DNA of 64,000 nt, taken from positions 1-64,000 of IMG/VR virus record IMGVR_UViG_3300020204_000048; one strand, given 5' to 3'. The notes beneath the pieces are model-generated. The model made no database searches and was not told the DNA's origin. It saw only the letters and a program-made list of their open reading frames with translations. Shown here one piece after another: positions 3,338 to 64,000 of the stretch. Source of the stretch: a virus. The position numbers and the translations under genes were made by a program. Every line of letters starts with the position of its first letter. Position 1 is the stretch's first letter.

Positions 3338-3470
3338 CAGCTTCCTCCCAGCAATCACCACAATCTCTGCATTTTATAAAAAAAATTTTTTGACCGTTGT
3401 CATTTCCCATGGTAACAATAAATCTAGGTGGATAAGAGCATTCCGGGCAAGTTGTTGGTTCAAACTTCAT
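3318..3470 (-). CDS. Zinc-ribbon micro-protein, 50 aa
   Basis: Fifty residues with CPEC (8-11) and CRDCGDC (34-40), a spacing that fits one zinc ribbon with an extra Cys, followed by an acidic tail (WEEADDSDDK). The ATG lies 2 bases after the recA stop, so it is probably translated by coupling. Together with the genes at 1138, 6873 and 7276 it makes a set of small zinc-binding proteins in the first 7.5 kb. Function unknown; nucleic-acid or polymerase binding is the usual role of such ribbons. Confidence 0.7.
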   Translation of the reverse strand: MKFEPTTCPECSYPPRFIVTMGNDNGQKIFFIKCRDCGDCWEEADDSDDK

Positions 3471-3472
3471 TG

Positions 3473-11667: not shown

Positions 11668-11669
11668 TA

Positions 11670-35294: not shown

Positions 35295-36557
35295 ATGGCT
35301 ATACCTGGAGTAAAAACATTAATTAGAGATCGCTTCTACAGTGTATCACGTCAGGATACACCTGTTGGTCCTAGAATAGTTGCAATAGCACGTCGTAGCA
35401 CAGCAAATAATACTGGTTCAGTAGCAGATCTTGACGTCGTCAGAGTTACCAATGAGGCAGATGCTATCACCGCATTTGGTGACGGCTCAGACGCTCACCG
35501 AGCTTATTTGGAGCTTGTTTTAGCTGGAGCTGGAAGAATTTTTATTGTTCCACTTCCTTCTGACACCAAATGGGATACCGACCCCACTAGCCCTGCAGCC
35601 ACAGGAACTGTAACAAGTTCTTCTTATGGTGGATCAGTTTTCGATGCAGCATTTACTGCTGCCGAAGCTGCTATCCCAGACATGATTATTCCTTGGGGTA
35701 GAGGGGCTCATCCAAACGACTGGCAAAACCCAGCTACACCCAGCGATGATGCATCATACGGCTTCGTTGCAGACAATACCTCAACAGTTCTAAGCAACTG
35801 GGCTTACCAGGTCGCCGCAAAAGTTAAGGATATCTCAGAAAATATTAATCCTTGCATTGCAATTATGGGCATAAAGCCATACTACAGCACAACAGAGGTT
35901 ATGACACCCGGTCAGGTTTCTGCGCACTTAGCTTTGACAGACCTACCTAACAGAAACGCTAGCGCGCTTTTCAAGGAAACTGGACCATATGTTGTTGTAG
36001 TCGCAGCAGAGATTAAGCCTGTAAATTACCAGTCTGGTACAACAGAGTTTGGTTACTCTAACGGTGCAGCCCATGTAGCTGGCGCTCTAAGTTTACTTCC
36101 TTCATTTAGTTCACTAGTAAATAAAGCTCTTTTCAACGTAGAGGCTGTTCGTTATGCCCCCTCAAGAACTCAGCAGAGCACTCTTGGAGGCAAGGGCGTA
36201 AATACTGTTATTATAAACTTTAATAAGATTCCAGTATTCGGAGAAGGCTTAACATTTGCTTGGGCAACATCAGACTATACTCGTCTTTCAACAAAGAGAA
36301 TTATAGACGACGCAACATCTATTGTAAGACAAGCTTGCCAGAGATTTGTTGGCGAACCATCAAACATTCAAACAAGAAATGCGATGGAAACAGCTATCAC
36401 TTCTGGCTTGAGAGGTATGCAAATCGTAGGAGCCTTGCTTGGTAGCGACTTTACAGTATCATACATACCAAACGAAAACAAGGCGATTGTAGACCTCATT
36501 TTAACACCTGCCTTCGAGCTCAAGGAGATCGAAGTCAGAGTAGCCATTAATCTATAA
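35295..36557 (+). CDS. Tail sheath protein
   Basis: The contractile sheath subunit that drives the tube through the host envelope. N-terminus AIPGVKTLIRDRF and the middle region (YLELVLAGAGRIFIVPLPSD; AAIPDMIIPWGRGAHPNDWQ) with the C-terminal GVNTVIINFNKIPVFGEGLT, RLSTKRIIDDATSIVRQACQ and a final strand (KEIEVRVAIN) fit sheath architecture. Length 420 is short but within range for sheaths lacking extra domains. The GGAGG site and a promoter in the gap before it suggest independent high-level expression. The tube gene follows. Confidence 0.92.
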   Translation: MAIPGVKTLIRDRFYSVSRQDTPVGPRIVAIARRSTANNTGSVADLDVVRVTNEADAITAFGDGSDAHRAYLELVLAGAGRIFIVPLPSDTKWDTDPTSPAATGTVTSSSYGGSVFDAAFTAAEAAIPDMIIPWGRGAHPNDWQNPATPSDDASYGFVADNTSTVLSNWAYQVAAKVKDISENINPCIAIMGIKPYYSTTEVMTPGQVSAHLALTDLPNRNASALFKETGPYVVVVAAEIKPVNYQSGTTEFGYSNGAAHVAGALSLLPSFSSLVNKALFNVEAVRYAPSRTQQSTLGGKGVNTVIINFNKIPVFGEGLTFAWATSDYTRLSTKRIIDDATSIVRQACQRFVGEPSNIQTRNAMETAITSGLRGMQIVGALLGSDFTVSYIPNENKAIVDLILTPAFELKEIEVRVAINL

Positions 36558-47069: not shown

Positions 47070-50000
47070 ATGTTGGGGAAAATAGCTAGTTTTCTAGAAA
47101 AACGAAGACAAGAGATTCCTGAGTATGAATCCTTTAGCGACTATTTGTCTGCGTACTTGTCTCCTTTATCTCCAGAGAAACAAGTTAGAGCAGCTAGAAG
47201 AATAATAGGAAAAATACCTACTGGCCAAAAAAGGTTAATAGAACCGTTTGTCGATCCAGCAGATAACATTTTAAAATATAGGTCATCTTATTTTGATCCA
47301 GATGAAGGCAGGAAAGTATTTAACTCTGTTAACGACGCTATAGAATATTTTTCTTCGCTGCATATTACTGAAGTTTACAGATTATCAAAAGATGATGTCC
47401 CCGTTGTATATAGGGGATATGGTCAGGTTTTAAGGGATATGGAAAAAGTCGCCATACAGCAAAATCTTTTTGGTATAGAAGCTTTAGAGATGAATATCGC
47501 TATTCATAAAGGTGGACTAGATACTCAGCAGGGCACTGAAGCGCTAAAAGCCTTTTTTGATGCACAGAAGCAAAAAGGCTATGGTTTACTCTTACCTACG
47601 GATGATGGCGGAATTGCTTTGAACTTGGTTGCGACAATTGCTGGCAAAAAACAAGTTCTAGGTTTAGATCAAACATTGGAAGTGATGCAGGCAGCAAATG
47701 TATCTGCTATAGATCCAGATGTTTTAGAGGACGCTTTGAGGTCGGGAAATAAAAAAGTAGCTTCTTTAATTCAAAAGTTGGATAAAAGATTGCGTGGCGT
47801 TTTGTCTCCAAGAGAGGTTTCTGTTTCTGGTGGTGCTCTAGAATCAATATTGGATGAAGTTGGTAAGCCTGGGTTATCATTCGCTGATTCAATTCTTAAC
47901 ACTGATCCAGTTTTTGAGGCACTGGGGTTAGCTCTAGATATTGATACATTGAAAAATGTTTCAGGAATGAACAATGCAGAAAAAGCCGCAGACGCAGCGC
48001 AAAGAATAAGAGATTCTTGGATGATTGGGGGTCAAGATAGATCTAAGGATTTTTATAAAATAATTTTAGATGAGGTAATTCGTGGACAGACTGGGCCAGG
48101 GCCAATAAAAACTGAAGTATATTCTGATATTGGCAATTATCTAAAGATAGCTATGCAAGACGCTATAGACAGTGGAGATGTAGATATTACTGTTGGCAAA
48201 TATGGTACAGATGTTTTGAAAAGTAAGCTTGGTTTATTGAAAGATAGGTTAGAAAAAGGTGCAGCTGGCGATGAAAAGGCTTTAAGTGAAATAGATAAAA
48301 AGTTTAACATTATTGACGTTTTACTTGATGAGATGGAAAAGGGGTCAGATGGTTCTATGTTGATAAATGATTCCTATACTAAAGCTATTCGAAAAGGGTA
48401 TCAATCTGAGATAGATGAATTAGATAAACAGTATGCACAGGCTACTAGTAGATTAGAAAAACAAGATATTCTTTTGAAAAAAAGAGAAATTCAGAGATCC
48501 TCGAGCCAATTAGATAAATCTAAGGGCTTGTCTCAAATAACTGTTCGTGGAAATGTTGTCTTTGATGCGGGAGATCAAGCGCGCCCCGCTAGAATATTCT
48601 CTCTAAAAGGCGCAGCAATGAGTGTTGAGTTTACTGGAAGATATACAAAATATTCTATTATTGCACCAAAGGCAACAACGAAAAGAGAAACTAGAATATC
48701 TGGTTTAACAGACATTCTAAACATTTCTGGTACCGGAGAGTCTAAAGGTGCAGTCTATGCCGATCCTATGCTTGATGCGTTTCATGCAGCAGTATTTGGT
48801 TCGCCACAATCGCAACAATTGGGTAGAGAGTATTCTCTTGCTTTACAAAAAGAATTTAACGAGATGTTAAAAGCAAATAGGATTGATGAGAATGGAAAAT
48901 TTTATCAATCCCTATTAAGCGCTGCAAATTTCCAATCTGAAGATATATTAGACACTCAGCAATTTTCTCAACTAATGAATAGGAATATGGCGCAAGAGAT
49001 ACTTGAAATCCATAGAAGTGGCATTCCGCTAGATCAGCATCCCAGGGCTATGAATAGAATTATAGATTTTGCTCAAAAAGAATTTTTTAAGATTAAAAAG
49101 GGAATACCACTACCAGTAATGCCCGATGTGTATAGATTTGCTTTGAACGCAGAATCTACCCAGATTGGTATATCAAGTGGCAGAATGTTCTTGGATATGA
49201 CTGATCAAAATATAATGATGGATGAAGGATTCAGTCTCAGTACAACTCGTGTAAGATTTTCTAATCACAACTTATTAATGAGCGAAAGGGATGTTATTAG
49301 GTTCCACCATGCTCTTGGTGGATTCGACCTTGACGACAAAGGGCTACCAGTTTTGGGAACCTACATGTCTAATGGCAAAAGACGTTTGGCTATGGCCATG
49401 GCTCGTCAGCCCACGGGTGCAGGCGAAATGATTGGGTTTGTTCGCTTTAATGATATAGAAAGTTATCAAGAATTATTTGGTCATAACGCAGATTTTATGA
49501 AAACTTTAGATCAAATGATTTTAGATGAAAAAGAAAAATTGGCAGGTTCTGGTAGTTCTCCAACCTTAGACAGATTAAATATTTTACAGCAAAATTTATC
49601 TGGAAAATTCACATCAGAAGAAATGACACGAATTGATCAGTCTGCATTATTAGATGAACTTGAGGAAACAATTATAGATGTTAGAGATAGATTGTATGGT
49701 GGAAAAGCAAGAACTTTTGATAGAGCATATTTCGAATCACTAGGCGTCCTAAAGCAGGGTGCTAGTACAGTTGATTTTTTTGCAGGATCTAGATTAGTTG
49801 ATTTTGCTGGCGTTGATCCGGGCTTAACTTCCCTTGGCTTTCAAAAGTTAAAGACTGAAGTTATGGAAATGAATCTTGAAGATGATATTTATCGGATGTA
49901 TGAGCATCTTATGACAGATCAGCAAAAAACGCAACTAGGTGCTATCAGAGATCAGATACAAGCATTAAAAGGTCCGGCATATTCCGGTCAGTTTATACCT

Positions 50001-52145
50001 GGTTCTGTTTACGATGATCCAGTGCAGCTGGCGGCATTAGAACAGGCACAGGCAGATATAAAGAAAGCTTCAAAAGCTTTTCGTGAAACTTTAGATAGTT
50101 TTCAATTAGATAAAAATAAAAAAGCTATTGCATTTAATAAATTCTATCTTGAAAGCATGGAAAAAGCATCTACGGAAAACGCTAACAATCTTGGTAAGCA
50201 TGTTAACAGAGCTACGGTAATTGCAGATGGTTTGGCTCAATTTGAAAAAGCTTTTGGATCTGATCAAGCAATTAACGATGCACTTAGGCGATATGACAAT
50301 GGGAAAGGGCTATTGGTAGGTTTTCCATCATCGGAAACCGCAGTAGACATGACCCAAACATTTACTTCTGGAAGACTGAAATTAAAAATGGAGGCAGAAG
50401 CAGCAGCAGATACTAGATATGGCATGGATATTTTTAGAAGAATGTATGGAAATAATTTTGATCTAGAAACAAGCGGCGCAGAAGCTGTGAGTCAATATGG
50501 GGAAATGTTCGGATATCTACAACATAGAGGGGGGCAACAGTTTGTTCTCGACAAGGCTCTCATTGATTTTGGAAAGTTAAACAAAGATGACCTTACAGCT
50601 TTTGCTGAGAGTTATATAAAGGGCGCTGAGGCTAGGATTGCTGAAGGAATACAAACTGATGAAGATCTTAGTAAATTAAAGAATCTGTTTGAAGGCGGAG
50701 ATGCCCCTTCTAAAGCTAAAATAATAACGGCCCTAACAGATATAGGAGTTATTGGTAGAGGTAATCTTTCTAAAACAATTGAAATTGCTCAGCAAGCTCA
50801 AGATAGTTTCAACGCAGCGAGAAAAAGATTTGGCGATAATATGAAAGAACTAAGAGATACGCTTACTGCTGGCATGGGCAAAAACGCTACTGAAGCACAA
50901 TTATCTGCAAAAGCTATTTTAGATGCAAATCAGAATATTTTTGACGAACTTATGGAAGCCAATGCAGCTTATAGAGACGCACAAAAATTATTTAGAGAAG
51001 GCATAGAGGATGGACAGTTTATCGATGCTGCCAGAAGGCAAGAGCTATCTATGGGCTTTGAACAGGCTCGATTAAGAGCTGAAATATTAAAAACTGAATT
51101 AGGAGACAATTTATTAAGAGGAATTGATGAAGTTAGATCACAAAGACCTTTAACTGGATTTAATTTATTAAATGCACTTCAATTAGAAGCTTCAGATCGT
51201 GGAATGAGCTCATATGTTTTTGAGCAGTTAACTGATCTTACCGAGGATTCAAATGAAGAATTTGCTAATCTTTTTGCCAGACTTAACATGGCGAAAAGGA
51301 ATAAAGCAGCCTACACAAAGGCAACTTCAAATTTACAAGTCAAAAATATTGTTGACAATTTCTTTAGCGCCACATCATCCACGAGGGAGTTACTGCTTAC
51401 GGATATTATTGAAGGCAACACCAAACAAAGGGCTTTAGACCTTTCTCAATATGGCGATGTTTCTGGAATGTTTGCAGATTTAGGTATCGACATGCAACAA
51501 TTAAGTCAAGCTGTAGGAAAAGGTGTGGAAGATACTACAGATGAAACTATAAAAACCATATCTAATGCCATAAGATCTAGGGCTCTATATGAAAGAGACA
51601 TTTTGGATCCCGCAATAGACGATTTTTTGAATGGTCAAATATCTGCAGATAAAGTCGTCGGACGCAAAGATAAACCAAAGGGTATAGTTGGTAATGTTTT
51701 GAGAGATCTTGAAGATCAATCTCCATCCAATGTAAATCCATCTAAATTTAAACGTTTAGATATGGATTATTTAACAGAGCAGTTTTCTAAGCCATCTGTT
51801 CAAAAAACTGCCATCGCAGCAGGACTATTGATAGCGGGAAGCTTTTTATATCAAAATAAAAAAGATAAAACAACAGAAGACGCTGCGGGTCCTCCGCTTC
51901 TTCCTGGTGGATCAGCTTATGAGCAGGGATATCCAACTTCTAATGTTTCTGTTCCCCAAATTGGTGGACAGGCATCTGCTTCTGGAATGAGTTACAAGGT
52001 TTCCTTATATGGTTCTAGGCAGGATGTTGAAAGATTTCAACAAGCAGCTTCTGGACTTACTAATGGACCGATTAACAGTACTATGTATAATAGGATCCCA
52101 AGTGTGACGTCTGATCCATATCAGCAGCTCGCTAGCTCATTTTAA
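47070..52145 (+). CDS. Giant helical virion protein with C-terminal membrane anchor, 1691 aa
   Basis: The ATG is 2 bases after the previous stop. Long stretches are helical and charged (LDKQYAQATSRLEKQDILLK; EQAQADIKKASKAFRETLDS), as in tape measure proteins. Near residue 1590 a hydrophobic helix (TAIAAGLLIAGSFLYQ) is followed by NKKDK and a 95-residue polar tail ending QLASSF, the same plan as at 11667 and 6853. It may be a second internal or tail-lumen protein, or an ejected protein that inserts in the cell envelope. No nuclease or lysin motif was recognised. Confidence 0.7.
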   Translation: MLGKIASFLEKRRQEIPEYESFSDYLSAYLSPLSPEKQVRAARRIIGKIPTGQKRLIEPFVDPADNILKYRSSYFDPDEGRKVFNSVNDAIEYFSSLHITEVYRLSKDDVPVVYRGYGQVLRDMEKVAIQQNLFGIEALEMNIAIHKGGLDTQQGTEALKAFFDAQKQKGYGLLLPTDDGGIALNLVATIAGKKQVLGLDQTLEVMQAANVSAIDPDVLEDALRSGNKKVASLIQKLDKRLRGVLSPREVSVSGGALESILDEVGKPGLSFADSILNTDPVFEALGLALDIDTLKNVSGMNNAEKAADAAQRIRDSWMIGGQDRSKDFYKIILDEVIRGQTGPGPIKTEVYSDIGNYLKIAMQDAIDSGDVDITVGKYGTDVLKSKLGLLKDRLEKGAAGDEKALSEIDKKFNIIDVLLDEMEKGSDGSMLINDSYTKAIRKGYQSEIDELDKQYAQATSRLEKQDILLKKREIQRSSSQLDKSKGLSQITVRGNVVFDAGDQARPARIFSLKGAAMSVEFTGRYTKYSIIAPKATTKRETRISGLTDILNISGTGESKGAVYADPMLDAFHAAVFGSPQSQQLGREYSLALQKEFNEMLKANRIDENGKFYQSLLSAANFQSEDILDTQQFSQLMNRNMAQEILEIHRSGIPLDQHPRAMNRIIDFAQKEFFKIKKGIPLPVMPDVYRFALNAESTQIGISSGRMFLDMTDQNIMMDEGFSLSTTRVRFSNHNLLMSERDVIRFHHALGGFDLDDKGLPVLGTYMSNGKRRLAMAMARQPTGAGEMIGFVRFNDIESYQELFGHNADFMKTLDQMILDEKEKLAGSGSSPTLDRLNILQQNLSGKFTSEEMTRIDQSALLDELEETIIDVRDRLYGGKARTFDRAYFESLGVLKQGASTVDFFAGSRLVDFAGVDPGLTSLGFQKLKTEVMEMNLEDDIYRMYEHLMTDQQKTQLGAIRDQIQALKGPAYSGQFIPGSVYDDPVQLAALEQAQADIKKASKAFRETLDSFQLDKNKKAIAFNKFYLESMEKASTENANNLGKHVNRATVIADGLAQFEKAFGSDQAINDALRRYDNGKGLLVGFPSSETAVDMTQTFTSGRLKLKMEAEAAADTRYGMDIFRRMYGNNFDLETSGAEAVSQYGEMFGYLQHRGGQQFVLDKALIDFGKLNKDDLTAFAESYIKGAEARIAEGIQTDEDLSKLKNLFEGGDAPSKAKIITALTDIGVIGRGNLSKTIEIAQQAQDSFNAARKRFGDNMKELRDTLTAGMGKNATEAQLSAKAILDANQNIFDELMEANAAYRDAQKLFREGIEDGQFIDAARRQELSMGFEQARLRAEILKTELGDNLLRGIDEVRSQRPLTGFNLLNALQLEASDRGMSSYVFEQLTDLTEDSNEEFANLFARLNMAKRNKAAYTKATSNLQVKNIVDNFFSATSSTRELLLTDIIEGNTKQRALDLSQYGDVSGMFADLGIDMQQLSQAVGKGVEDTTDETIKTISNAIRSRALYERDILDPAIDDFLNGQISADKVVGRKDKPKGIVGNVLRDLEDQSPSNVNPSKFKRLDMDYLTEQFSKPSVQKTAIAAGLLIAGSFLYQNKKDKTTEDAAGPPLLPGGSAYEQGYPTSNVSVPQIGGQASASGMSYKVSLYGSRQDVERFQQAASGLTNGPINSTMYNRIPSVTSDPYQQLASSF

Positions 52146-52610: not shown

Positions 52611-55600
52611 ATGTCTAATATCGAACAATCGGAAAATCAAGAAGAACAGAATTTAAACTCCGCAGACCCATTGTCATATAATTACAGTCAAAAAGCTTTT
52701 GTGAATATGATGACGGTTGGTCCGCTTAATCTAACCGATGATTATTTACCTAAGTCTCGGTACAAAAACTCAGAAGAAGCTTTTGAAAGGTTTTTTTCTT
52801 TAACTAGGCCTGAAATTCTTCCCATACTTGATATAGATCATTATGCAACCCTTGCAGATTATTCATCTGGTCTGGAAGAAGCGAAAGATAACTATCAGAA
52901 AAGGGTAGAAGCTACTACTAGAGTTTTTACGCTTGGGGGCACATTGTCTTCAATCATTGACGACAATACTCTTCTGGTAAATTTGTATAAAAGGCTAGAA
53001 TCTACCGGCCTACTATATCTAGCATCATTCGCCTATGAAATAAGTGAATTGGGCAAGAAAAGACTACAAAATGTGTATATTACACAAAAGTCTTTAGATT
53101 ATCACATAGATCCAGCGGTTGATACCGAATGGCTTACTTTATTAAGCCAAGTAGTTTACAATCTTCAAGCGGATCCTATATCTTTCTCTATTATAAATCA
53201 CTACCTGCCGGGTTTAATGACGTTTGTTTTTGATGCGTTGGCTGTAACAGGCGACTACTCAAATGCAGGCAAGGGTGGCGGAAAAGAGGATACCCTCAAT
53301 AGGGAAGAGGATGCTATTGATGAATTGGAAAAAGCTTTTGGTCTTGCTCCAAATGGTGAGCCAATATTTACTATGGCTTTTAGAATTGGAGGTAACACTT
53401 CCGAAAGAATTCGTAAGGCAATAGAAGACTTTCCATATAGAGCTCATATACCTCCCAAAAAACCTGATATTTTTCATTTGCGTTTAGGCGCAGCTAATTT
53501 TTATGTACCGCCTATTTCTATCACGGTTAATTCTGCATTTAAAACTGGATCACTTACTGGCGGAGCAATCAGACAAAGAAATACTCCCAAATATAATGCT
53601 GGCTATAAAGAAACTTCAATCTCTTTAAGATTATTCTTTCCAAACTATGAAGAAATATGGGGCATGCATATAAGCGATGCTTCGGCAATAGATCTTAAGG
53701 AAAATTTTAAAATAGATTTTAAGAATACTGGAGATTCGGAAGAAAAAATAGATAAGTTTCTTTCTTCTTTGCGTGGATTAGTAGCAGCATTTAAATACTC
53801 TCCAATACTTCCAATAAAAAATGATTATATAAATTCTGTCCATGGAATTTCAGCTGTGGCATTATCTTCTATGTCTGTTTCTACAGTTCCTAATTATCCA
53901 TTTTCTTTAATGGTTGATTTAGAGCTGCTCGCTTATAATCACAAACCATTTTTGCCAATGCTCAAAGACTTTAATCAAGCAATTCATTGGGGTAAATACA
54001 GGCAGTACATGGGTAAAGCAGCGGGTGCAATGCATAAATACGCAAACGAATCCTTCTTACTAAAGACGTCCGATAATAAAAATGTCCAAGAGACAGAAGA
54101 TAATACTGGAATAATTCGTAGTGACTCATATATATATCAGAAAAATCCACATGGACCTATTTTAATCGATGAATCTGCGCTAGTAGATTCTTCTTTAACG
54201 GATGACACAGTAGAACTGCTTAACACGTATGAAAATGATGTTTTATATACCAATATAGTTGCTCAGTGGAGAGACGGTAGTAACTTAACTTTTTATACTC
54301 CAGCTGAAACTCAAACAAAAATGTTCTTACCTGATACTTCTTCTTTCAGAAGTGAGCAGGAAAAAATTCTTAATCAACAAAGTTTTGGACTGTGGAATGG
54401 TTTGCTGGCAAAATTCGGAATTGAAATTTCTCCAAATACACCAGCAATTCGTGATTTAGATCAAATCAAGTCTCTTTCTCTAGAGCCAACATTCCCCCCT
54501 TCTATTAAGACAGCTGTTAGGCAATCTGTAGATATAATTACTGCTGGTATTAATCAAAGTGACTACAGGGCTGGAATCTATAAATACAAGGTACAGTCAT
54601 TTATATCAAGCAACATATTAAAGTTGACGACACAAGAAAAAGAATGGTTGTTGAATTACCTAACTCCAGACCAAATGCCATTTGATGTAGACTACTTTAC
54701 CCTATATCCAACAGAAGGATCATATATATTGAATGATCCAGTTTTCAATAATAAAAATAATAGTGTTAGTTTAAACTTTATCAAAAAAAGTATTTGGGAT
54801 TCAGTTTATTCTTCTGGTAATATTATTGAAACTTTGATTGTCGAAGAGATTGAAAAAAGAAAAGTTTTAGGCACCGAAACAGCCGTGCCTGACGAAAAAA
54901 AAATTCGTCAACAAGTAACTGATGCATTCTTATTATCACTGTATGATCGCTTTTTTTCTGATGGCTATATCCAAAATCTTATGGAGGCAAAGCGTTTAAG
55001 GGAGGGAGATTACCATTTCCAGGAATGGGAAGTCCCAATGAACAGAGTTGATTTAGACCCTAAAAAAGCTATAGTTAATGGTGTAAGCGTAAGTCTTGGA
55101 AACAACCTTTCGAAGTTGCAAGTGCAAATGCAGGAGGAACCAACATATCAGTATATAGGTGGAAAAGATTCATATGTCAATATATCAATGACTGTTTTTG
55201 GTGAAAGAGAGCTTTATAAAATTAGAGCAATTTTTGATCATATCAATTCATTAGCAAGGCTTGAACACTCTACGGGAGTTATTGGTTTCCTTGGAATTAA
55301 AAATATTATTAGCGCACTATGTGGAATCAAATATGTTATTCCATTAAACTTCAAAGTCGATACAATACCAAATTATCCACATGTTTACAATGTTCAATTA
55401 AGTTTTGTTGACTTTGACATATTTCAGCAAAAAAGAGAAAAGCTTTCATCAAAGCAGCAAAAAGATTTTATTGACCACTTTGGGTCAAAAAGAAATCCAT
55501 TTTTAAGAATTAAGCAGTTGTGGGGAGCATTTAATGCATATCCCGATATGCCGCTGGAAGTTCGTGATAAAGAAAATGAAATAGTTGGCAATTTGGATCC

Positions 55601-58600
55601 AGACTTCTATTTTAGAAGTTTTGAAATGTTTGACAGAGATGTCATTAATAACTTTACTTATCAACCAGATATAACAAAAGATTTTAAATTTGATTATAGT
55701 GATAATTGGGCTAAGCTGGGAGATGCGCGTGGTATAGAAATAAGAAAAAATCAAGTTAAAAATAGAATTACAGATTTTCTTAGAAGATACGCTTATAAGG
55801 ATATTGCCAATGAGCCATTGCCGCAGCTTTTAAGAGCAAATAATAATAAAATATTAATTGACGAAATCATAGACTATGTGAACAGTAGCGGCATAAGCGT
55901 TCATAACTTTATTAGTCTTTTCCAAGAAGTGGTACAAGCAGAAACTTCTGAGTTTCAAACTTCAGAAAAGCAAGCCTTATTAACCGATTATGTTTTTATT
56001 TCTGCACAATCAACTGAAGATAATCCAGTATTTGAAGAAATTTCTGGAGCCGGTTATTCCGTTGGTAATGTAAATTATAGTAGTGCAGAAACGCTAAATT
56101 TAATCAAACAGGTTTTGACAAATTCTCATTTAGCAACTGAAACAGAAGTCAGCTTTAATCCAGATGAAGTTGATTTTCATAAAGTTATATACTTGATTCC
56201 AGCAACAAATCCGCAAGAAGCTGGATCCGGATCAGACATTCCGGCAATGATGCAATCAGCATTAGGGACTCATTTTGGCTATATTAATAAAGACAATGGA
56301 AGATTTTATTTAACAGTTGATGGAGCCAATGTTTTGATAGATGACCATGGAGACAAGAGACTAGTAGAGAATCAGGTTGAGGATACACAAACGCCAGATA
56401 GAGGTTGCAAAAATGCCCTTACCGGCGTAGAAGGTGTTCAGTCATTAAATAAGTATCAAAAAGCTTATGATGGATCCTTTGGTAGCCATATTCAAAAGAT
56501 GATGAACGATGTACAGTATAGAGATATATCTGGAAGAATGATCAGGGCATTTCCCACCTACATGTTATGGTTAATTGACGAAGGTGGTTTTTTTGCTGGT
56601 GTTAAATTATTCGATAACTTTTATGGGTTGCAGTCTATAGTAGATTTTTCCGTTGTTTCCTCAGAGGATCTCTTGGGTGATACTTTAATATTTAGAGTAT
56701 CAAATATGTATTCAAAATTGACTACACGTCCTTCTACTGAAATTTTTAATTCTAGAGATAACCAACCAAATGATGCTCCAATAGACTTTACTCAAGGTAT
56801 TGAATCTATTTTGGATAGAACTTTGAATATAGCTAAAAATATTGTCTCAGGAATGAGAAATGATTATGTTGTAGATATTAATAATATTAGATTAAAGCCT
56901 GGAGTTCGCGTTCATCTTAGGGTTGGATATGGTGCTAATCCAAACTCTTTGCAAACAGTTTTCAATGGTGTGATAACAAATGTGGAGCAAGGTGAAATTG
57001 TTACAGTAACAGCACAGTCTGATGCAATTGAGCTTAGTGCAATAGTTAACTCTACAAATAAAAAAGGCGACACAGGTAAAATAGATGGTGGCGTAGATAC
57101 TGGCATGTATTTGTCTGAACCTAGAGACCTAATGGTTAGATTGCTTTCAATGGGCGCATCAAGATTTAGGGAAGCTTTTGCTAGAGCTACAAATGGAACA
57201 GTCTTTTCTGAAAATAGATTTGGTATTAGACATTTTGGCTCAACACTATACGAACCATTAAGCGAATCAGAGAGGGCAAGAGCTGATGGAATAAGAAATG
57301 TTGTAGCAAGCGTTTATTCTAATCTTGGTCAAGGAGATGTTGGCGGAGCTGCCAATGCGGCATCATTCAAGTTGGCAACTAATGTTTTTACAAGAAACCC
57401 TGTTAGCACATTCTTTGGAGATGGAAGAATAATGACTAGCATGGGGCAGTTAATGTCTAACTTCTGTGCAGAGGTTGATTTAGAAATTTTCAAAAGAAAT
57501 ATTTATCCAGGAAATGGAACAGGCTTTGCTCAGTTCCTTGGTGGAGACATAGATGATGGATGGTTGACAGCTTCGTCTTTAGTGGAGGAAGATAGTAAAA
57601 AACTAAAAGGACAAGCGTATTTGGAAAGAGCCGGAGACAGATCTTGGAATCGTCTTATAGTAGAAGCTCAAAATGAGTCCGTGTCAGCCAAAACAGCAAT
57701 TTCAACAATGACTGCCGGAAATCAACTAGTATCTAGTGAGGGTAGGGCAAACGCAACTAAAAATATACTTATGGGTGGATTGGCTGGAGCTGTAGGTCTA
57801 ATACCTGGAGTAAATTTTGCTATAGGTTCTGGAATAGCTGGTGGTGGATTATTTGGAATATTAAGAGGAAGAGGTGGCACCAATCTTTTCCGAACAATGG
57901 GTATTATTTCACCAAACGATGATGATGACCTACCAGGTTTTGACGAAGTCTCCTTCAGGGCTCAAACATATATGAGAACTGTATGGGATTTATTCCAGGT
58001 TTGCGCTAGATTGTTACCCAATTATATTGTAGCCATTAGACCTTTTGAAGATAGATCTACAATATTTTATGGTAAGCCTCACTGGCTTTACACTTCGGGC
58101 GTAGTACCTGTAACTACTGGTTTTCCTAGTACGCAAAGAGGCTCTGAACTAGAATTACCTGGCTATCCAAAATATCGTTCGGCAGATGAAGATATTCAAA
58201 ATATTATGAGTAATATAAATAGATCCAGTAACACACTTGCTGATTATGAAGCATTTAAAAGATCTAATGAACTGTCAGATACAATGGCAAGCTTAGCTAG
58301 TGATCAAGTTAATTCACAGGGCATTTATAAGCCTACGGCATTTTTGAAAGAAAAATTAATTAACTTTAACTCACCATTAGCTTCAAGCTTTTCTGAAACA
58401 CAAGACGACGGAACTAAAGTGGTAGTAGCAAAACTACCAACAGTAGTTGGCTTAACAAGAGTTGGTTTCCACCTTCCTGTTGGAGATCCGACTACAACTA
58501 TTGCTCCAATGACAAAAGCCCATGCTCAGTTGGATAATCTTCCGCCAAGATTTAGGTACCCGTTTTACACAATCAATGAAACTATTATATTAGACTCTAC

Positions 58601-61600
58601 ATCTTATAGTATTAGAGACGGCGGAGTTTTTCAGAACGCAGCCAGTCATTTTAAGGATATTGGCAAATCTGGAAGAAAGTTTCTAGATAATGAAGGCGAA
58701 GTTCCAATGGACGCCGAAGAATTTCAAGGGTTTGTCAATGAGGCAATGGCAGAAGATAGAAGATCTTTTGGTGGCGCAACTTTTATGGCCAACATGTTTA
58801 CCCTGCTTCAGTATGAAAGCAAGTTCATTTTAAATAATGAACTAACTCTAGTGCCATCTTCTGGAATATTAGAGTTAGATCGTCCTTTGGGGTTCTCAAC
58901 TTTTATTGATAATATTATTGATGTAGATGGTTTGTCTTTTATTGGTGGAGCAAATACAAAGTATGTAAGAATGCCTCTGCCCTCTGTTTTAGCTAATAGA
59001 TTAAGCATATCTGTTGACCCAGCTGCAATTACACAATACTCAGTTAGCTCTTCTGAGGCAAAGAGAAATGCTGATGATTATTCGTTTGAGTATGAGATAT
59101 CAAATCAGATATCTTATGAAGAATGGGGATCTCCCGGTGACCTCCCTGCCTCTCAGCAAACAGCAGCAGAGGCAGAACAATTTTACATTGCTATGAAATG
59201 GCCATATAATCCTGGATTCTCTTCTACGCAAGCTCCTTCGGGCTTTAATAACATAACTGTCTATGATGAAACATTGGAAAAGTTCAAAGAAAAGTATGGA
59301 TTTACGGATTTATATGGAACAGCAGAAGATTATAAAAAGAGAAAAGTCTTAGTTTATAGTCCCAGAACTAATAGGGCTGTTGTTTGCGCTCCAGCATATT
59401 TCCTATGGGGAGATGATGATGATACGGCGGCAGCTGTAGTTTCTCCAGACGCTGCATGGTATTTGGGTAACTTCATATCAAAAAATTTAAGTTTTAAATT
59501 AACCGCTAACTCAGAGGAATCCGATATATTAAACCAATTGCCATCATGGATAAATACAATGGCAAGTGCAGCTGGCGCTGTAGGCAGCGCTGCAGGCACT
59601 GCGCTTGGTTATGCTTTAAACGTTTCGCAATATATTAGCGCTCCTATATATATAGGAAATAGAATTACCGATAGATTAAATGTATCTATTTTTGGTAATG
59701 AAGATGAGTTAAATTATGAAAATGAAAGTGGATTAAGTATAAATCCACAGCCAGTGGAATGTATGTTTGCATTTGTGCCAGACGATGTTCCTGTAGGTGT
59801 AATATCTTCAGCAGCAGCTCCGATAAAAAGATTCCTTGAAAGAGGAGCCAGATCTCCGGATGACAGCATGATCCTTGGTTTTGGAAATTACACAATGACA
59901 GAAGATGGTCAGTTATCAGAACTGACAGCAAGACGCACAACTTCTCAGGATTTAATAAATGAACTTCAAGGTGGAGCTGGCTCTAGATTTAAGGTTTATG
60001 ATGAGGACATGGTAGATCCTCCAAATATATTCTCGGAGTGGATTCCTATAAATGCGGAAATATCTTCTAGCAGATTTGATTTTGGCGGCAATGCTTTAGC
60101 AGTTCCAGACGGAAGAGATAAACCATTTATAGGTTACTTTAATGCACTATTAGATGCTACAAACTTTAATTCCTCAGCAGAGTCTGGTGGTTTAGGATCA
60201 AGTGAAGATTCCGATCTAGTAGGAAATGAACAACTTTCTAGAAGTTATTTATATGACGTTTTAGATGAAGAGCTGAGTACAACCGGAGATGTAAAGACAA
60301 GTAAGGGCAGAGCTGCATTCTTAAGTGTATATGACCCTTTGGACTCTGTTTCAGTTGAAGCTCGATCTTATTATGATGAAAATTTTGACCCGAATGTATC
60401 AGTTATAGCTGGTAATGGAAGAAATCTGAATCAAGCAAATGATATATGGGATCAGTTCAGATTTGGTTATCATACATATGATAGCGTTAAAGCTATTTTT
60501 GCAAGAATTTATGGAATGGACCCAGATTCAACGGACGCATTTCCAGAAGAATTTGCTAGAATATTAGGATCCTCAAACGAAAACTCATTTAGTAATTTTG
60601 AGGATTCAAACATTCCAATCGCAGGTTTATCTAACACTGAAAATACCGCAGTAGATGAATTAGCTATTTTGTTAGGTGCAGATTATTTTAATATACCCAA
60701 TAATCCACAGATGGGTGGTCAAGGTGTTCCGTCAACAAACGCTACTCAAAGAAGAAACGCAGTAGAGTTTATAAGAAAAAACTATATAGACTTAATAGCA
60801 GCAGAAAAAGAATCTGATACAGGGATAATACAATTTTTTAATGCTACTATTGCTGACGCTCTTAATGGAATCAAAGAAAACTTTTTTGAGTCTGGAGTTA
60901 CAAACTCGATATTAGAGTACGCTTTAGAAAATAAAAAAAATCCTGAAGAGGCTATTGCTCTAAGTGAAAAAATTAAAACTCCAAAACAATTATTTCTTTT
61001 AATGGTTGGAATATTTAGACAAAATCTTTGGAGTACAGCTTATGGTAGAGCATGGTTAGTATTAAAGCCCAACCGTAAAAGGGGAATTATAACAAGTGGT
61101 GGAGGCGGTTCTGAGGGGCAATGGTCATTCAAACCTGTTGATAAAATTTTTGAAGCTTTTATAAATCCTTATGGTGAATACGCTAAGGATAAAAATAAAT
61201 TTCTGAAGCTTTTAGTTTCCACAAAATCGGAAGGAACTGGTTCTTCTACTTTTATTAGTGGAATATCAGAAAGCGTTGGTAATTTCTATGATAGAAACAT
61301 AGGGCCAATTATGAGTGCAATAGGCGACGGTCTTTCTGGTCTTTTAGGTATGTTTAAATTGGCCATGATGCAAATGGGATATGCTATCACCGAAGTTGGT
61401 AATTTTAGTAGGCAAGCTCATATATTAAATAAAGTTCTAAATGATTCTATTTATTATTCGCTTGGAAGAGAGGGTAGCCTATTGAGGGCTGTAGATAATC
61501 CGTTTACTCGTGAGTATGGTGAGCCAGTTGTGGAAGTTAGGCAATCATTCCAAAGATTGCATTATTTAAGTTCATTTTCTCATATTATATCTAATCAGAT

Positions 61601-63767
61601 TCAAGAAAACCTAAATGGAGTTTCTACTGTTGTTACAGCTGTCTCAGATGGCAAGTATCCAATTACAGTAGCCCTAGACAAAGGCGCGCCAGCAGAGCGT
61701 CAAACTGAAAAAACTGTTGAAACAGGTTTGTATTACGATAATTTCGTTGGATCTGGATTTCTCGGTGTGCTGCATCCACTAATGCATCCCCTGGAAACAG
61801 TCAGGGGTATAGCAAAAAATATTCAGGGCACACCTGACGAACTATCTGCTAGAAGAATAGCGTTAGCGCACCTGAGAGAATCAATTAAAGATATATATGG
61901 TGGGGAATTAATTATAATCGGGAATGCTGATATACGTCCGCATGACCTGGTTTACTTGTCGGATGTTTATGAAAGAATGTACGGCATTTTTGAAGTTGAA
62001 CAAATAGTACATCACTTTACTCCAGAAATGGGCTATATTACATCGATTACACCAAATGCTTTGGTGACCGTTAACGATCCTGCCAGATGGTTTTTGAGCT
62101 CATGGATTAACTCATGGTTCACTGTGCAAAACCTAAGAAATGATACACGTTTCTATATGGATAATATAATGGCATCCAACAGCGGCATTAATTTAGGCGG
62201 AATGGTATCAGTAGATGCTTTATCCGACGCCTTAAGCCCCCAGATGATTGGTGGATTACAATACACTCATGGATCTACTGCTTTAATTAAGGATATTATG
62301 GCAAATCAAACAGCTACAACTCTTCCCCAAAAAGCAGAAGCTGTGATTAAGCAATATGGTTCTTCTGCTAGCAGATCTGTTTTTCAGGGAATGACTACTG
62401 CCTTAACTGGCGGAGTGGGCATCGCAGCGGCTGCAGCTGGCGCTGGCGCTACCGGAGTAGCAGGCTTTGCTATGGGTTTGTCTGTGCCAATAGTTGGTCA
62501 ATTGGCATGGAAGGGTTGGAAATGGATTAGAGACAATGTTCTTGACCAACACGGATGTTATGTTCAATATCTTAGCAAGAATGGTCAGCCGATGGATGCT
62601 GGACTATCTTATAATCAGGGTATGGTTGTTGGCAGGCATCACTCTAAAGTATTGCTCCCCGGCCTGCTCGGTGCAAGGACAAAAGTTAGAACACCAGAAG
62701 GAAATATTTTTATTAGAAGCGACGATCTTTTGAAGAGTTTAGGTTGGCAAGAAAGGCAGACAACAGATCTAATAAGATACATAGATTACGAGAATGCTCT
62801 AGTTCATGCAAGAGTGCTACAATTAAGTGGGCTAGGTCCAGATAAAACTAATCTCCAACCTTCACTATTTAGCGTTATTGCTAAAGTTATAAAATTTAAA
62901 GATGGTGACACATTTGATGTACAGGATGTTATTTCTGGGGCAAAATTTACTGTCAGATTTGATGGAATAGACTCTGGCGAAATTAATACATTTACTGTTA
63001 CATCAAATGATGGCGATTTAGGAGTTAGCTATAGTAATGACTCAACGCCATCAACGAAAATGACTGCAATCAATACTCCTGGTGGTAAAGCTAAGATATT
63101 CGTACAATCTAAATTAGAAAACAGATTAGTAGTTTTAAGAATAAGAATTAACAACGCAGCGTCGAGTTCTGTTATTTCTGAATCTGATTTCGAGGCTGGG
63201 GCAGAGCAAAATACTGTTGCAAACTATACTAAAGATGTTACAGAGTCAAATAGAATCCTTGGTACAGTATGGTATTATCAGCCAGAGTCTATAGTCCAGG
63301 CAGCAAAAGATTTTGTTGAAAAATGTTTTATAGATAATCAAATTGGCGCCGGCGCAGAGCAAAAAATAAAACAATTATTCTTTAACTCTATATATCAAGA
63401 TTCACCACTTTTTGTTAAGAAAGACTCAATATTAAATGCGCTTTCAGCATTAGGCTTAGTTTACACTTCGCCACTATCCATAACACTCGATACAAATACT
63501 AAATATGGATTATCCAATAGTGAAACAATTAAATTGTATAACGATTTAGTGCAGTATAAAGTACTAGAATCTACCTATAATAAAACTAGAGAATGGCCTA
63601 CTATATTCTGGGATGAATACTATGAAAATGGCCATCCTGTTACCCTAAATTGGGAATTGGTAACAAATAACTTGGCTACAGTATATACTAAGCAGCTTCA
63701 AATTGAGGGGAATTCTGTCATCAGTGCCGAAGAATCAGCAATAATGCCCGCAAGAGTTGGGCAATAG
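52611..63767 (+). CDS. Giant baseplate/tail-hub protein ending in an SNase-like nuclease domain, 3718 aa
   Basis: One ORF of 3718 residues, the longest here. Residues 270-460 and 800-940 hold two related units, each ending in a TVPNYPF/TIPNYPH segment, resembling tail-associated baseplate units. Residues 1420-1480 (GVRVHLRVGYGANPNSLQTV; FNGVITNVEQGEIVTVTAQS) and 3099-3152 (GNADIRPHDLVYLSD; FEVEQIVHHFTPEMGYIT) match gp27/gpD hub-type barrels. Hydrophobic Gly/Ala stretches lie near 1725, 2316 and 3265. Residues 3424-3615 fit a staphylococcal-nuclease fold: KDGDT (D3431, D3433), VRFDGIDSGE (R3449, D3454, E3457), SNRILGTVWY (R3548) and LNALSALGLVY. It probably forms the hub and carries a nuclease. 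AAGGTGAAGC precedes the ATG. Confidence 0.82.
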   Translation: MSNIEQSENQEEQNLNSADPLSYNYSQKAFVNMMTVGPLNLTDDYLPKSRYKNSEEAFERFFSLTRPEILPILDIDHYATLADYSSGLEEAKDNYQKRVEATTRVFTLGGTLSSIIDDNTLLVNLYKRLESTGLLYLASFAYEISELGKKRLQNVYITQKSLDYHIDPAVDTEWLTLLSQVVYNLQADPISFSIINHYLPGLMTFVFDALAVTGDYSNAGKGGGKEDTLNREEDAIDELEKAFGLAPNGEPIFTMAFRIGGNTSERIRKAIEDFPYRAHIPPKKPDIFHLRLGAANFYVPPISITVNSAFKTGSLTGGAIRQRNTPKYNAGYKETSISLRLFFPNYEEIWGMHISDASAIDLKENFKIDFKNTGDSEEKIDKFLSSLRGLVAAFKYSPILPIKNDYINSVHGISAVALSSMSVSTVPNYPFSLMVDLELLAYNHKPFLPMLKDFNQAIHWGKYRQYMGKAAGAMHKYANESFLLKTSDNKNVQETEDNTGIIRSDSYIYQKNPHGPILIDESALVDSSLTDDTVELLNTYENDVLYTNIVAQWRDGSNLTFYTPAETQTKMFLPDTSSFRSEQEKILNQQSFGLWNGLLAKFGIEISPNTPAIRDLDQIKSLSLEPTFPPSIKTAVRQSVDIITAGINQSDYRAGIYKYKVQSFISSNILKLTTQEKEWLLNYLTPDQMPFDVDYFTLYPTEGSYILNDPVFNNKNNSVSLNFIKKSIWDSVYSSGNIIETLIVEEIEKRKVLGTETAVPDEKKIRQQVTDAFLLSLYDRFFSDGYIQNLMEAKRLREGDYHFQEWEVPMNRVDLDPKKAIVNGVSVSLGNNLSKLQVQMQEEPTYQYIGGKDSYVNISMTVFGERELYKIRAIFDHINSLARLEHSTGVIGFLGIKNIISALCGIKYVIPLNFKVDTIPNYPHVYNVQLSFVDFDIFQQKREKLSSKQQKDFIDHFGSKRNPFLRIKQLWGAFNAYPDMPLEVRDKENEIVGNLDPDFYFRSFEMFDRDVINNFTYQPDITKDFKFDYSDNWAKLGDARGIEIRKNQVKNRITDFLRRYAYKDIANEPLPQLLRANNNKILIDEIIDYVNSSGISVHNFISLFQEVVQAETSEFQTSEKQALLTDYVFISAQSTEDNPVFEEISGAGYSVGNVNYSSAETLNLIKQVLTNSHLATETEVSFNPDEVDFHKVIYLIPATNPQEAGSGSDIPAMMQSALGTHFGYINKDNGRFYLTVDGANVLIDDHGDKRLVENQVEDTQTPDRGCKNALTGVEGVQSLNKYQKAYDGSFGSHIQKMMNDVQYRDISGRMIRAFPTYMLWLIDEGGFFAGVKLFDNFYGLQSIVDFSVVSSEDLLGDTLIFRVSNMYSKLTTRPSTEIFNSRDNQPNDAPIDFTQGIESILDRTLNIAKNIVSGMRNDYVVDINNIRLKPGVRVHLRVGYGANPNSLQTVFNGVITNVEQGEIVTVTAQSDAIELSAIVNSTNKKGDTGKIDGGVDTGMYLSEPRDLMVRLLSMGASRFREAFARATNGTVFSENRFGIRHFGSTLYEPLSESERARADGIRNVVASVYSNLGQGDVGGAANAASFKLATNVFTRNPVSTFFGDGRIMTSMGQLMSNFCAEVDLEIFKRNIYPGNGTGFAQFLGGDIDDGWLTASSLVEEDSKKLKGQAYLERAGDRSWNRLIVEAQNESVSAKTAISTMTAGNQLVSSEGRANATKNILMGGLAGAVGLIPGVNFAIGSGIAGGGLFGILRGRGGTNLFRTMGIISPNDDDDLPGFDEVSFRAQTYMRTVWDLFQVCARLLPNYIVAIRPFEDRSTIFYGKPHWLYTSGVVPVTTGFPSTQRGSELELPGYPKYRSADEDIQNIMSNINRSSNTLADYEAFKRSNELSDTMASLASDQVNSQGIYKPTAFLKEKLINFNSPLASSFSETQDDGTKVVVAKLPTVVGLTRVGFHLPVGDPTTTIAPMTKAHAQLDNLPPRFRYPFYTINETIILDSTSYSIRDGGVFQNAASHFKDIGKSGRKFLDNEGEVPMDAEEFQGFVNEAMAEDRRSFGGATFMANMFTLLQYESKFILNNELTLVPSSGILELDRPLGFSTFIDNIIDVDGLSFIGGANTKYVRMPLPSVLANRLSISVDPAAITQYSVSSSEAKRNADDYSFEYEISNQISYEEWGSPGDLPASQQTAAEAEQFYIAMKWPYNPGFSSTQAPSGFNNITVYDETLEKFKEKYGFTDLYGTAEDYKKRKVLVYSPRTNRAVVCAPAYFLWGDDDDTAAAVVSPDAAWYLGNFISKNLSFKLTANSEESDILNQLPSWINTMASAAGAVGSAAGTALGYALNVSQYISAPIYIGNRITDRLNVSIFGNEDELNYENESGLSINPQPVECMFAFVPDDVPVGVISSAAAPIKRFLERGARSPDDSMILGFGNYTMTEDGQLSELTARRTTSQDLINELQGGAGSRFKVYDEDMVDPPNIFSEWIPINAEISSSRFDFGGNALAVPDGRDKPFIGYFNALLDATNFNSSAESGGLGSSEDSDLVGNEQLSRSYLYDVLDEELSTTGDVKTSKGRAAFLSVYDPLDSVSVEARSYYDENFDPNVSVIAGNGRNLNQANDIWDQFRFGYHTYDSVKAIFARIYGMDPDSTDAFPEEFARILGSSNENSFSNFEDSNIPIAGLSNTENTAVDELAILLGADYFNIPNNPQMGGQGVPSTNATQRRNAVEFIRKNYIDLIAAEKESDTGIIQFFNATIADALNGIKENFFESGVTNSILEYALENKKNPEEAIALSEKIKTPKQLFLLMVGIFRQNLWSTAYGRAWLVLKPNRKRGIITSGGGGSEGQWSFKPVDKIFEAFINPYGEYAKDKNKFLKLLVSTKSEGTGSSTFISGISESVGNFYDRNIGPIMSAIGDGLSGLLGMFKLAMMQMGYAITEVGNFSRQAHILNKVLNDSIYYSLGREGSLLRAVDNPFTREYGEPVVEVRQSFQRLHYLSSFSHIISNQIQENLNGVSTVVTAVSDGKYPITVALDKGAPAERQTEKTVETGLYYDNFVGSGFLGVLHPLMHPLETVRGIAKNIQGTPDELSARRIALAHLRESIKDIYGGELIIIGNADIRPHDLVYLSDVYERMYGIFEVEQIVHHFTPEMGYITSITPNALVTVNDPARWFLSSWINSWFTVQNLRNDTRFYMDNIMASNSGINLGGMVSVDALSDALSPQMIGGLQYTHGSTALIKDIMANQTATTLPQKAEAVIKQYGSSASRSVFQGMTTALTGGVGIAAAAAGAGATGVAGFAMGLSVPIVGQLAWKGWKWIRDNVLDQHGCYVQYLSKNGQPMDAGLSYNQGMVVGRHHSKVLLPGLLGARTKVRTPEGNIFIRSDDLLKSLGWQERQTTDLIRYIDYENALVHARVLQLSGLGPDKTNLQPSLFSVIAKVIKFKDGDTFDVQDVISGAKFTVRFDGIDSGEINTFTVTSNDGDLGVSYSNDSTPSTKMTAINTPGGKAKIFVQSKLENRLVVLRIRINNAASSSVISESDFEAGAEQNTVANYTKDVTESNRILGTVWYYQPESIVQAAKDFVEKCFIDNQIGAGAEQKIKQLFFNSIYQDSPLFVKKDSILNALSALGLVYTSPLSITLDTNTKYGLSNSETIKLYNDLVQYKVLESTYNKTREWPTIFWDEYYENGHPVTLNWELVTNNLATVYTKQLQIEGNSVISAEESAIMPARVGQ

Positions 63768-63777
63768 GGAGTTTATT

Positions 63778-64000
63778 GTGTCATTTAATATTAATAATGA
63801 ATCTCTTTCTGATAGCGCATCTTTTGCTAAAACTATACATGGGGATTTTTACCCCGGTGGAAAATCACCAGTTTTAAACACTAGCGCTTCTTTAGCGCCT
63901 CCTGCCACAGGAAGAACATTAAGTTCTTTTGATGTAACTGGAGTTATGGCTGGAGATGTTTTAAATAGAAGTAAAAAATATCCTATAGCAGCCATGAATG
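63778..64000 (+). CDS. Partial ORF, continues past window end
   Basis: GTG start at 63778, preceded by AGGGAG 7 bases upstream, 10 bases after the giant gene's stop. The 74 visible residues (SFNINNESLSDSASFAKTIH; PGGKSPVLNTSASLAPPATG) are Ser/Gly/Pro-rich and may be a baseplate or tail-tip component. The frame is open to the end of the window, so the product and length cannot be given. Confidence 0.65.
   Translation, partial: MSFNINNESLSDSASFAKTIHGDFYPGGKSPVLNTSASLAPPATGRTLSSFDVTGVMAGDVLNRSKKYPIAAMN

Follow-up and report, generated by a model that had tools for sequence, protein, structure and literature searches.

A divergent staphylococcal nuclease-fold domain at the C-terminal end of a giant phage baseplate hub

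Introduction

A domain related to staphylococcal nuclease (SNase) was reported in 2007 on the hub protein RBTH_07687 of BtI1, a Bacillus thuringiensis israelensis prophage, and in the accessible text of that paper its authors found the use of such a domain not obvious (PMC2147016). The same text gives gp147 of phage 0305phi8-36, a gp27-type hub, as the source of the lineage's hub assignment. Here we analyse positions 1 to 64,000 of the IMG/VR virus record IMGVR_UViG_3300020204_000048, which is 70,366 bases long; this stretch of 64,000 nucleotides is called the window. Its giant baseplate hub gene (52611..63767; like all window features given below, on the + strand) is an open reading frame (ORF) of 3718 amino acids, and it is as good as certain that the last ~300 residues of the product are a divergent SNase-fold domain, missed by Pfam. 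To our knowledge, phage tail tips are known for enzymes that degrade walls or capsules rather than for nucleases.

The fusion of an SNase to a hub is not new, and the claim of the initial annotation of the window that no phage hub with such a fusion had been described falls to the BtI1 precedent. The novelty lies in a large clade, represented by 72 of 78 contigs, in which a divergent SNase, overlooked by Pfam, stands at the C-terminal end. Among the matches listed in our literature searches on tail and hub nucleases there was no SNase hub apart from that of PMC2147016, and no experimental description of a class of virion-borne tip nucleases. As far as their available text goes, PMC7824862 mentions neither SNase nor baseplate in its main text, PMC3482391 has nothing on SNase hubs, and the word nuclease is absent both from PMC5000817, on phage ME3, and from PMC8026635, on pBtic235, an inducible plasmid prophage from the subspecies that also hosts BtI1.

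Results

The C-terminal end of the hub has an SNase fold

The SNase-fold domain spans residues 3418-3699 (62862..63707), as judged from an AlphaFold2 model, structural alignments, profile comparison and a match to the NCBIfam family EcnA. The model was made without templates from an alignment, A1, of 41 distinct sequences. A1 started from 45 distinct C-termini, the window included; the contigs L006, L045 and L051 were dropped as near-duplicates and L035, L037 and L038 as incomplete, and L024 and L055 were added, while L025, L057, L058 and L082-L084 are absent from it. The mean predicted local distance difference test (pLDDT) score of the model was 69.2, and 20 of the 27 ten-residue blocks over residues 3414-3683 scored 81-94, the others 36-75.

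When the model was compared with the Protein Data Bank (PDB) by Foldseek, the best 50 of 564 matches were SNase variants (best E 3.3e-4, probability 1.00); 1syb, one of the rows, is presumably SNase as well. A second structural aligner gave Z scores of up to 12.1 for SNase (107 residues, 3.2 Å; model 106-382 against SNase 7-120) and 10.9 for SND1, and in many rows model 105-386 spans SNase 6-117. The comparison with SNase proposed by the initial annotation thus returned the oligonucleotide/oligosaccharide-binding (OB) fold core of SNase, which the model contains together with the first two helices. In sequence, the last 405 residues of the window protein matched NCBIfam NF047969, the calcium-activated nuclease EcnA, over residues 3423-3509 (E 5.7e-8, 32.9 bits); this score is far below the equivalog cut-off of that family, 180 bits. 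The sequence match indicates that the window domain is homologous to EcnA but is not EcnA itself. Finally, profile-profile alignment with hhalign of the spliced core against stand-alone and hub SNases gave 97.8%, and 0.04-0.06% was obtained for the insertion and the flanking segment; against a wider, mixed SNase set the value was 97.05%, compared with at most 1.03% in 60 column shuffles. Together with the hub homology shown below, the fold and the EcnA match bear out the proposal that a thermonuclease-like domain ends a baseplate giant.

Several results weigh against this assignment. Pfam PF00565 had 0 matches in the window and matched 1 of the 41 A1 sequences at E 0.12, below the curated cut-off; we therefore class the domain as SNase-fold but divergent, and not covered by the Pfam model. 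Searches of PDB sequences returned no SNase, either with the window protein, which had no match, or with the A1 profile, whose single match was to an unrelated protein. When hhalign was given just the stand-alone SNases of the phages themselves, a very uniform set, the value was only 13-40%. The third helix of SNase has no confident counterpart, most alignments end at SNase 117, and the pLDDT of the model is below 50 beyond residue 3693. One could then propose that the motifs are a chance likeness in a fast-evolving tail protein and that there is no SNase at all, a proposal for which the missing Pfam match, the lack of SNase among the PDB sequences matched and the weakness of the PHROGs match of the hub (phrog_452, endonuclease, E 0.018) would speak. 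The EcnA E value, the Z score and an hhalign value of 97% against shuffles leave it a vanishingly small chance, and we regard it as refuted for practical purposes. Chance motif resemblance was rejected by the shuffle and neighbouring-segment controls.

Three of four proposed motifs are in place and the domain is longer than proposed

For SNase we use residue numbers that we take to be the established ones (Asp21, Arg35, Asp40, Glu43 and Arg87, and the second helix). The DGDT motif lies at D3431-T3434 (62901..62912), where D3433 corresponds to D21; the KDGDT of the initial annotation is therefore present, with D3431, D3433 and T3434. In RFDGIDSGE (62955..62981), R3449 corresponds to R35, D3454 to D40 and E3457 to E43; both R3449 and E3457 had been numbered correctly within the proposed VRFDGIDSGE, and the R-x4-D-x2-E spacing is that of SNase R35/D40/E43. 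The third proposal, that NRILGTVWY is the region of the catalytic Arg, also holds: R3548, at the R87 position, opens the strand RILGTVWY (63252..63275).

The fourth does not. NALSALGLVY, put forward as the helix motif, sits inside a helical insertion of ~105 residues (about 3559-3663; 63285..63599) between the R87 strand and the second helix. This insertion, defined from the model helices with borders that we chose, is spanned by the structural alignments and is poorly conserved in A1 except for its last residues. The counterpart of the SNase second helix is instead LNWELVTNNLATVY (residues 3679-3692). It is part of GHPVTLNWELVTNNLATVY (residues 3674-3692; 63630..63686), which corresponds to the second helix and the next strand in a residue-level profile alignment from whose profile the insertion columns were left out. 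This placement agrees with the model helix 366-372 (residues 3679-3685) and with where the structural ranges end, and G3674, N3680 and V3691 are each found in 41/41 rows of A1. Because the alignments continue through SNase past the insertion, the domain extends to ~3699, some 250 bases beyond the end at residue 3615 given for it initially, and the construct suggested for expression, residues 3415-3620, would lack the counterpart of the second helix. The description of an intact SNase stands as far as the catalytic Arg/Glu/Arg and Asp21 are concerned, which are kept, and fails for the one misassigned motif.

Upstream of the domain, a conserved motif, HGCYVQYLSKNGQPMDAGLSYNQGMVVGRHHSKVLL (residues 3314-3349; 62550..62657), lies between the gp27-type domain described below and the SNase and is near-invariant in A1. 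The stretch separating these two domains has partly low model confidence. We also looked for a remnant of an N-terminal SNase in the window hub, and it was absent (hhalign probability 0.14%).

The protein is a gp27-type baseplate hub

The identity of the giant gene was established from its PHROGs match, its homology to giant phage proteins and the colinearity of the aligned blocks. The ORF matched phrog_20474 at E 8.2e-121; we note that PHROGs labels this hub family 'endolysin', and that the window hub has no Pfam wall-hydrolase match. By tblastn, the hub matched giant proteins of Bacillus phage KLEB27-3 (5e-32), Moorella phage MTATph1 (9e-29) and Acinetobacter phage ME3 (E 1e-8), which are labelled in their records 'putative baseplate protein', 'endolysin' and 'baseplate hub protein', respectively. 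The ME3 record likens its own hub to that of 0305phi8-36. No record of 0305phi8-36 was among the tblastn matches in a collection whose coverage of this phage was left unchecked. By blastp, five colinear blocks were aligned with MTATph1 and likewise with KLEB27-3. In addition, a BFVD entry named 'Baseplate hub protein', from an uncultured phage, is 38% identical to the last 405 residues of the window protein. A scan of bacterial genomes for such hubs found no relative.

The gp27-type hub domain was placed at residues 2974-3173 (61530..62129) by structural alignment of an AlphaFold2 model of residues 2960-3180. This model is weak overall (mean pLDDT 59.8), with the blocks 141-190 (residues 3100-3149) at 81-87. 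Among the matches listed, the 13 with Z of at least 8.0 all come from tails, tail tips or baseplates; the T4 puncturing device (8.1), the pyocin R2 hub (8.3) and Mu gp44 (9.0) are among them. Five VgrG rows follow at Z 5.5-7.6, and a few unrelated chains are found at Z 6.5 and lower. Thus, the window protein carries, as modelled, the gp27/gp44/VgrG hub fold, and it has sequence homology to annotated hubs.

The gene set around the hub is the one expected. A tail sheath gene is located upstream (35295..36557; phrog_16991, E 5.9e-20), which makes this a phage with a contractile tail. The genes downstream were read on L001, a contig of 179,608 bases that is 100% identical to the window over the last 340 residues of the hub; 3' of the hub it has a weak, gp25-like wedge match (14369-14749; phrog_120, E 3.8e-4) followed by a gpJ-like wedge gene, Baseplate_J (14751-15920; Pfam, E 5.4e-11).

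SNase domains on other hubs precede the gp27-type domain

The SNase domain of the window has counterparts on distant hubs, at another position. In the ME3 hub, Pfam detects an SNase at 1126-1241 (E 4.7e-14), N-terminal to an M23 peptidase. The SNase of the MTATph1 hub scores 34.9 bits, above the Pfam cut-off, and that of the KLEB27-3 hub 15.6 bits, below it. The hubs of the plasmids pAD3 and pN497 are labelled 'nuclease' in their records, and Pfam is below its cut-off for the former and silent for the latter. These five hubs are among the sequences from which an SNase profile was made, so its recovery of each of them (at 127-322, or 1095-1231 in ME3) is no more than expected. The window did not contribute to the profile and is matched by it as well, at 3420-3516 (22.4 bits; E 6.6e-8 in a set of just 12 sequences). 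Over the 12 hubs compared, the SNase is N-terminal to the gp27-type domain in 5, C-terminal in that of the window alone, and not found in 6.

Two further likenesses are recorded here. In MTATph1, a 1953-amino-acid open frame upstream of the hub contains a second, sub-threshold SNase match (29046-29180, 15.4 bits). By eye, the N-termini of the L101 and L102 hubs (~130-420) resemble a degenerate SNase; the profile gave only 1.75% over 20 columns, and we do not claim it.

The catalytic residues are kept across the clade

In A1, the window included, the equivalents of R35, E43 and R87 are each conserved in 40/41 rows and that of D21 in 41/41; the rows are related to each other, hence no probability is attached to these counts. 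With L080 set aside, invariance is seen at 18 of 177 core positions, all four catalytic ones included. On the clade as a whole, the three motifs were found in one frame in 72 of 78 contigs: a pattern scan of the locus picked up 67, and the other 5 (L012, L014, L034, L064 and L066), which escaped it, were recognised by eye. The remaining six comprise three contigs in which the frame is split (L035, L038, L039), two truncated by the end of the contig (L037, L077) and L080.

L080 (5766-7097) has K, R and N in place of R35, E43 and R87, and it has also lost D19, T22 and E3669. Such a joint loss of the triad is what would be expected if R35, E43 and R87 act together, and the SNase of L080 is likely an inactive natural variant, to judge by these replacements.

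In the three split contigs, a +1 frame change interrupts the SNase; these contigs represent two distinct sequences, and the change falls at homologous positions in both (~6555-6575 in L035, ~6570-6590 in L038 and L039). The R87 strand and a later LNWELV segment are conserved in the new frame. This may be a programmed shift, a split gene or a shared lesion. L082, L083 and L084 also have a frame change, in the linker 5' of the SNase, with the SNase motifs within one open frame.

Two observations tell against catalysis. Position 40, which we take to be, like Asp21, a Ca2+ ligand position in SNase, is N in 36 of the 41 rows, D in 4 and E in 1, the window being among those with D (D3454); the hub SNase of MTATph1 has Asn here too, as do the SNases that these phages encode as separate genes. 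Moreover, since L080 has lost the triad and one group is frame-split, catalysis would appear dispensable. It could be argued from this that the hub uses the SNase fold as a structural element or to bind DNA or RNA, docking, for example, the product of the next gene or the leading DNA end, with catalysis secondary or lost. The N at position 40 would fit such a role, as would the retention by L080 of 12 of the 18 otherwise invariant positions without the triad. So would the finding that 13 of the 25 positions kept in at least 40/41 rows fall in a single family-specific, interface-like stretch, Y3656-V3691. A purely structural role, however, gives no reason to keep the Arg35, Glu43 and Arg87 equivalents almost throughout A1, and the hub SNases of MTATph1, KLEB27-3, ME3, pAD3 and pN497 also have R/E/R, by eye. 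We consider this explanation rather improbable. From its residues, we think there is a good likelihood that the domain is catalytically competent; it is a real and probably active SNase.

The SNase occupies a cargo place of the hub family

Domains C-terminal to the gp27-type domain differ among the hubs of the family. At this place, the pBL141-2 hub has a Lysozyme_like domain (E 2e-33), the P. urinalis hub a Glucosaminidase domain (3.1e-14), the P. rhizovicinus hub a glucosaminidase by annotation only, and MTATph1 an M15/VanY-like domain (E 0.0026, below the Pfam cut-off). The hubs of KLEB27-3, ME3, pAD3 and pN497 end shortly after a short motif, similar to HGCYVQYLSKNGQPMDAGLSYNQGMVVGRHHSKVLL, that lies C-terminal to the gp27-type domain, and those of L100-L102 continue into a C-terminal tail with no domain assignment. 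On pAD3 and pN497, whose hubs carry SNase, the wall hydrolases have genes of their own, located one to three genes downstream. By a loose pattern of our own, this motif is present in 12 of 12 hubs, but the pattern matches elsewhere in 8 of those, and outside the clade a profile of the motif scores at most 4.1 bits. Because the motif evidence is weak, the shared cargo place is defined by position C-terminal to the gp27-type domain. Hence, the window SNase occupies the place where some sister hubs hold an enzyme that cuts the cell wall.

Stand-alone SNase genes, mostly of ~120-140 codons, occur elsewhere in the records of the clade, in 13 of 14 and in 7 of 16 more (above the Pfam cut-off; L091-L099 included); these are counts over records that may be fragments, and two of the matches are cut by a contig end.

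The next gene starts within the window (63757..63999) and is complete in L001 as an ORF of 780 amino acids (11013-13355). By eye only, it shows an M15-like motif, SGHRDHIHLSF, and a transglycosylase-like one, RESNCRPT..SLGFLQINMG; searches of Pfam, PHROGs, PDB sequences and NCBIfam with the 780-residue product gave nothing that supports a peptidoglycan hydrolase. Directly 5' of the hub there are two giant ORFs, of 2231 amino acids (40372-47067) and 1691 amino acids (47070-52145), likely tail proteins by position; the first had no match in Pfam and the second none in PHROGs.

Discussion

Our results suggest that the virion carries the hub SNase, as a Ca2+-dependent nuclease, at the tip of its tail, where it would stand in for a tip-mounted attack enzyme. 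SNase requires Ca2+ at levels that are not reached in the cytosol, and EcnA is named as calcium-activated; activity is therefore expected outside the cell and in its envelope, and not in the cytosol. The nuclease would act where Ca2+ is high, outside or within the cell envelope, on DNA (or RNA) met by the tip on or under the surface, the targets being possibly surface or matrix DNA, or nucleic acid beneath the wall. In the Ca2+-poor cytosol it would be quiet and, having no activity there, would spare the DNA of the phage itself. Taken as a whole, this reading of a Ca2+-dependent tip nuclease at the surface or envelope is evenly poised; as to the place of action, we put its being mainly at the surface or envelope a little short of even.

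Three considerations count against it. The place of action is read from just two things, the position on the hub and the Ca2+ biochemistry as we know it. Catalysis is a prediction from residue conservation and fold. Furthermore, a nuclease at the hub needs control, because the phage's own DNA passes through the hub.

The main rival, which we rank second, is injection; it takes up the suggestion of the initial annotation that the nuclease might cut host DNA upon puncture or attack neighbours. The nuclease domain would enter the target cell at puncture, perhaps clipped off, and either cut host DNA or RNA or kill neighbours, in the manner of an evolved VgrG. The hub domain has the gp27/VgrG fold, as the five VgrG rows at Z 5.5-7.6 indicate, the catalytic residues are kept, and the linker ahead of the SNase may be flexible, given its partly low model confidence. 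In support of such a route, the fusion of effector domains to the VgrG C-terminus is established in the accessible text of PMC7324665 and provides a precedent. The rival also faces difficulties of its own: the phage's own DNA would be exposed, and a stand-alone SNase gene, present in 13/14 and 7/16 records, is the more natural intracellular enzyme. The Ca2+ level of the cytosol is, moreover, too low for SNase. We consider injection into the cytosol unlikely, though somewhat less so than a fold retained without catalysis.

If the surface and envelope reading is true, the targets could be, for example, host DNA within the envelope, or DNA of the surface or of a biofilm that obstructs the phage. 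A broader proposal, which we offer tentatively, is that in several lineages of large contractile phages an active nuclease has been swapped into or added to the puncturing tip, the usual seat of wall-cutting enzymes; since the end of the hub concerned differs, this may have happened more than once. Jointly with it, and with the same reserve, we would propose that the nuclease of the window clade is fixed and catalytically maintained and cuts nucleic acid during the attack. A nuclease maintained at the same hub end throughout a clade, with SNases on distant phage and plasmid hubs, makes the question of 2007, why an SNase should be on a hub, a testable one. Annotation overlooks such domains: Pfam is blind to this SNase, and PHROGs calls the hub family 'endolysin'.

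How does the window hub compare with known systems? With SNase and EcnA, its domain shares the OB-fold core, the catalytic Arg/Glu/Arg and the DGDT motif; it differs from them in the helical insertion of ~105 residues, in the lack of a confident third helix and in its fusion to a tail hub. Like the evolved VgrG proteins of type VI secretion, it belongs to the hub or spike protein of a contractile machine and is a C-terminal enzyme domain, whereas the window protein is a phage protein within a sheath and wedge gene set. The hubs of MTATph1, KLEB27-3, pAD3, pN497 and ME3 are homologous and also have an SNase domain, but theirs lies ahead of the gp27-type domain (at ~127-322, or 1126-1241 in ME3), whereas that of the window follows it. 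As described in the accessible text of PMC2147016, gp147 of 0305phi8-36 shares the gp27-type hub and has transglycosylase, NLP and M23 domains, with no SNase mentioned there. The same text makes RBTH_07687 of BtI1 a giant gp27-type hub of the 0305phi8-36 lineage with an SNase-related fusion, as in the window; by that description its SNase is N-terminal, whereas the window has its own at the C-terminal end, in a divergent form that contains a helical insertion.

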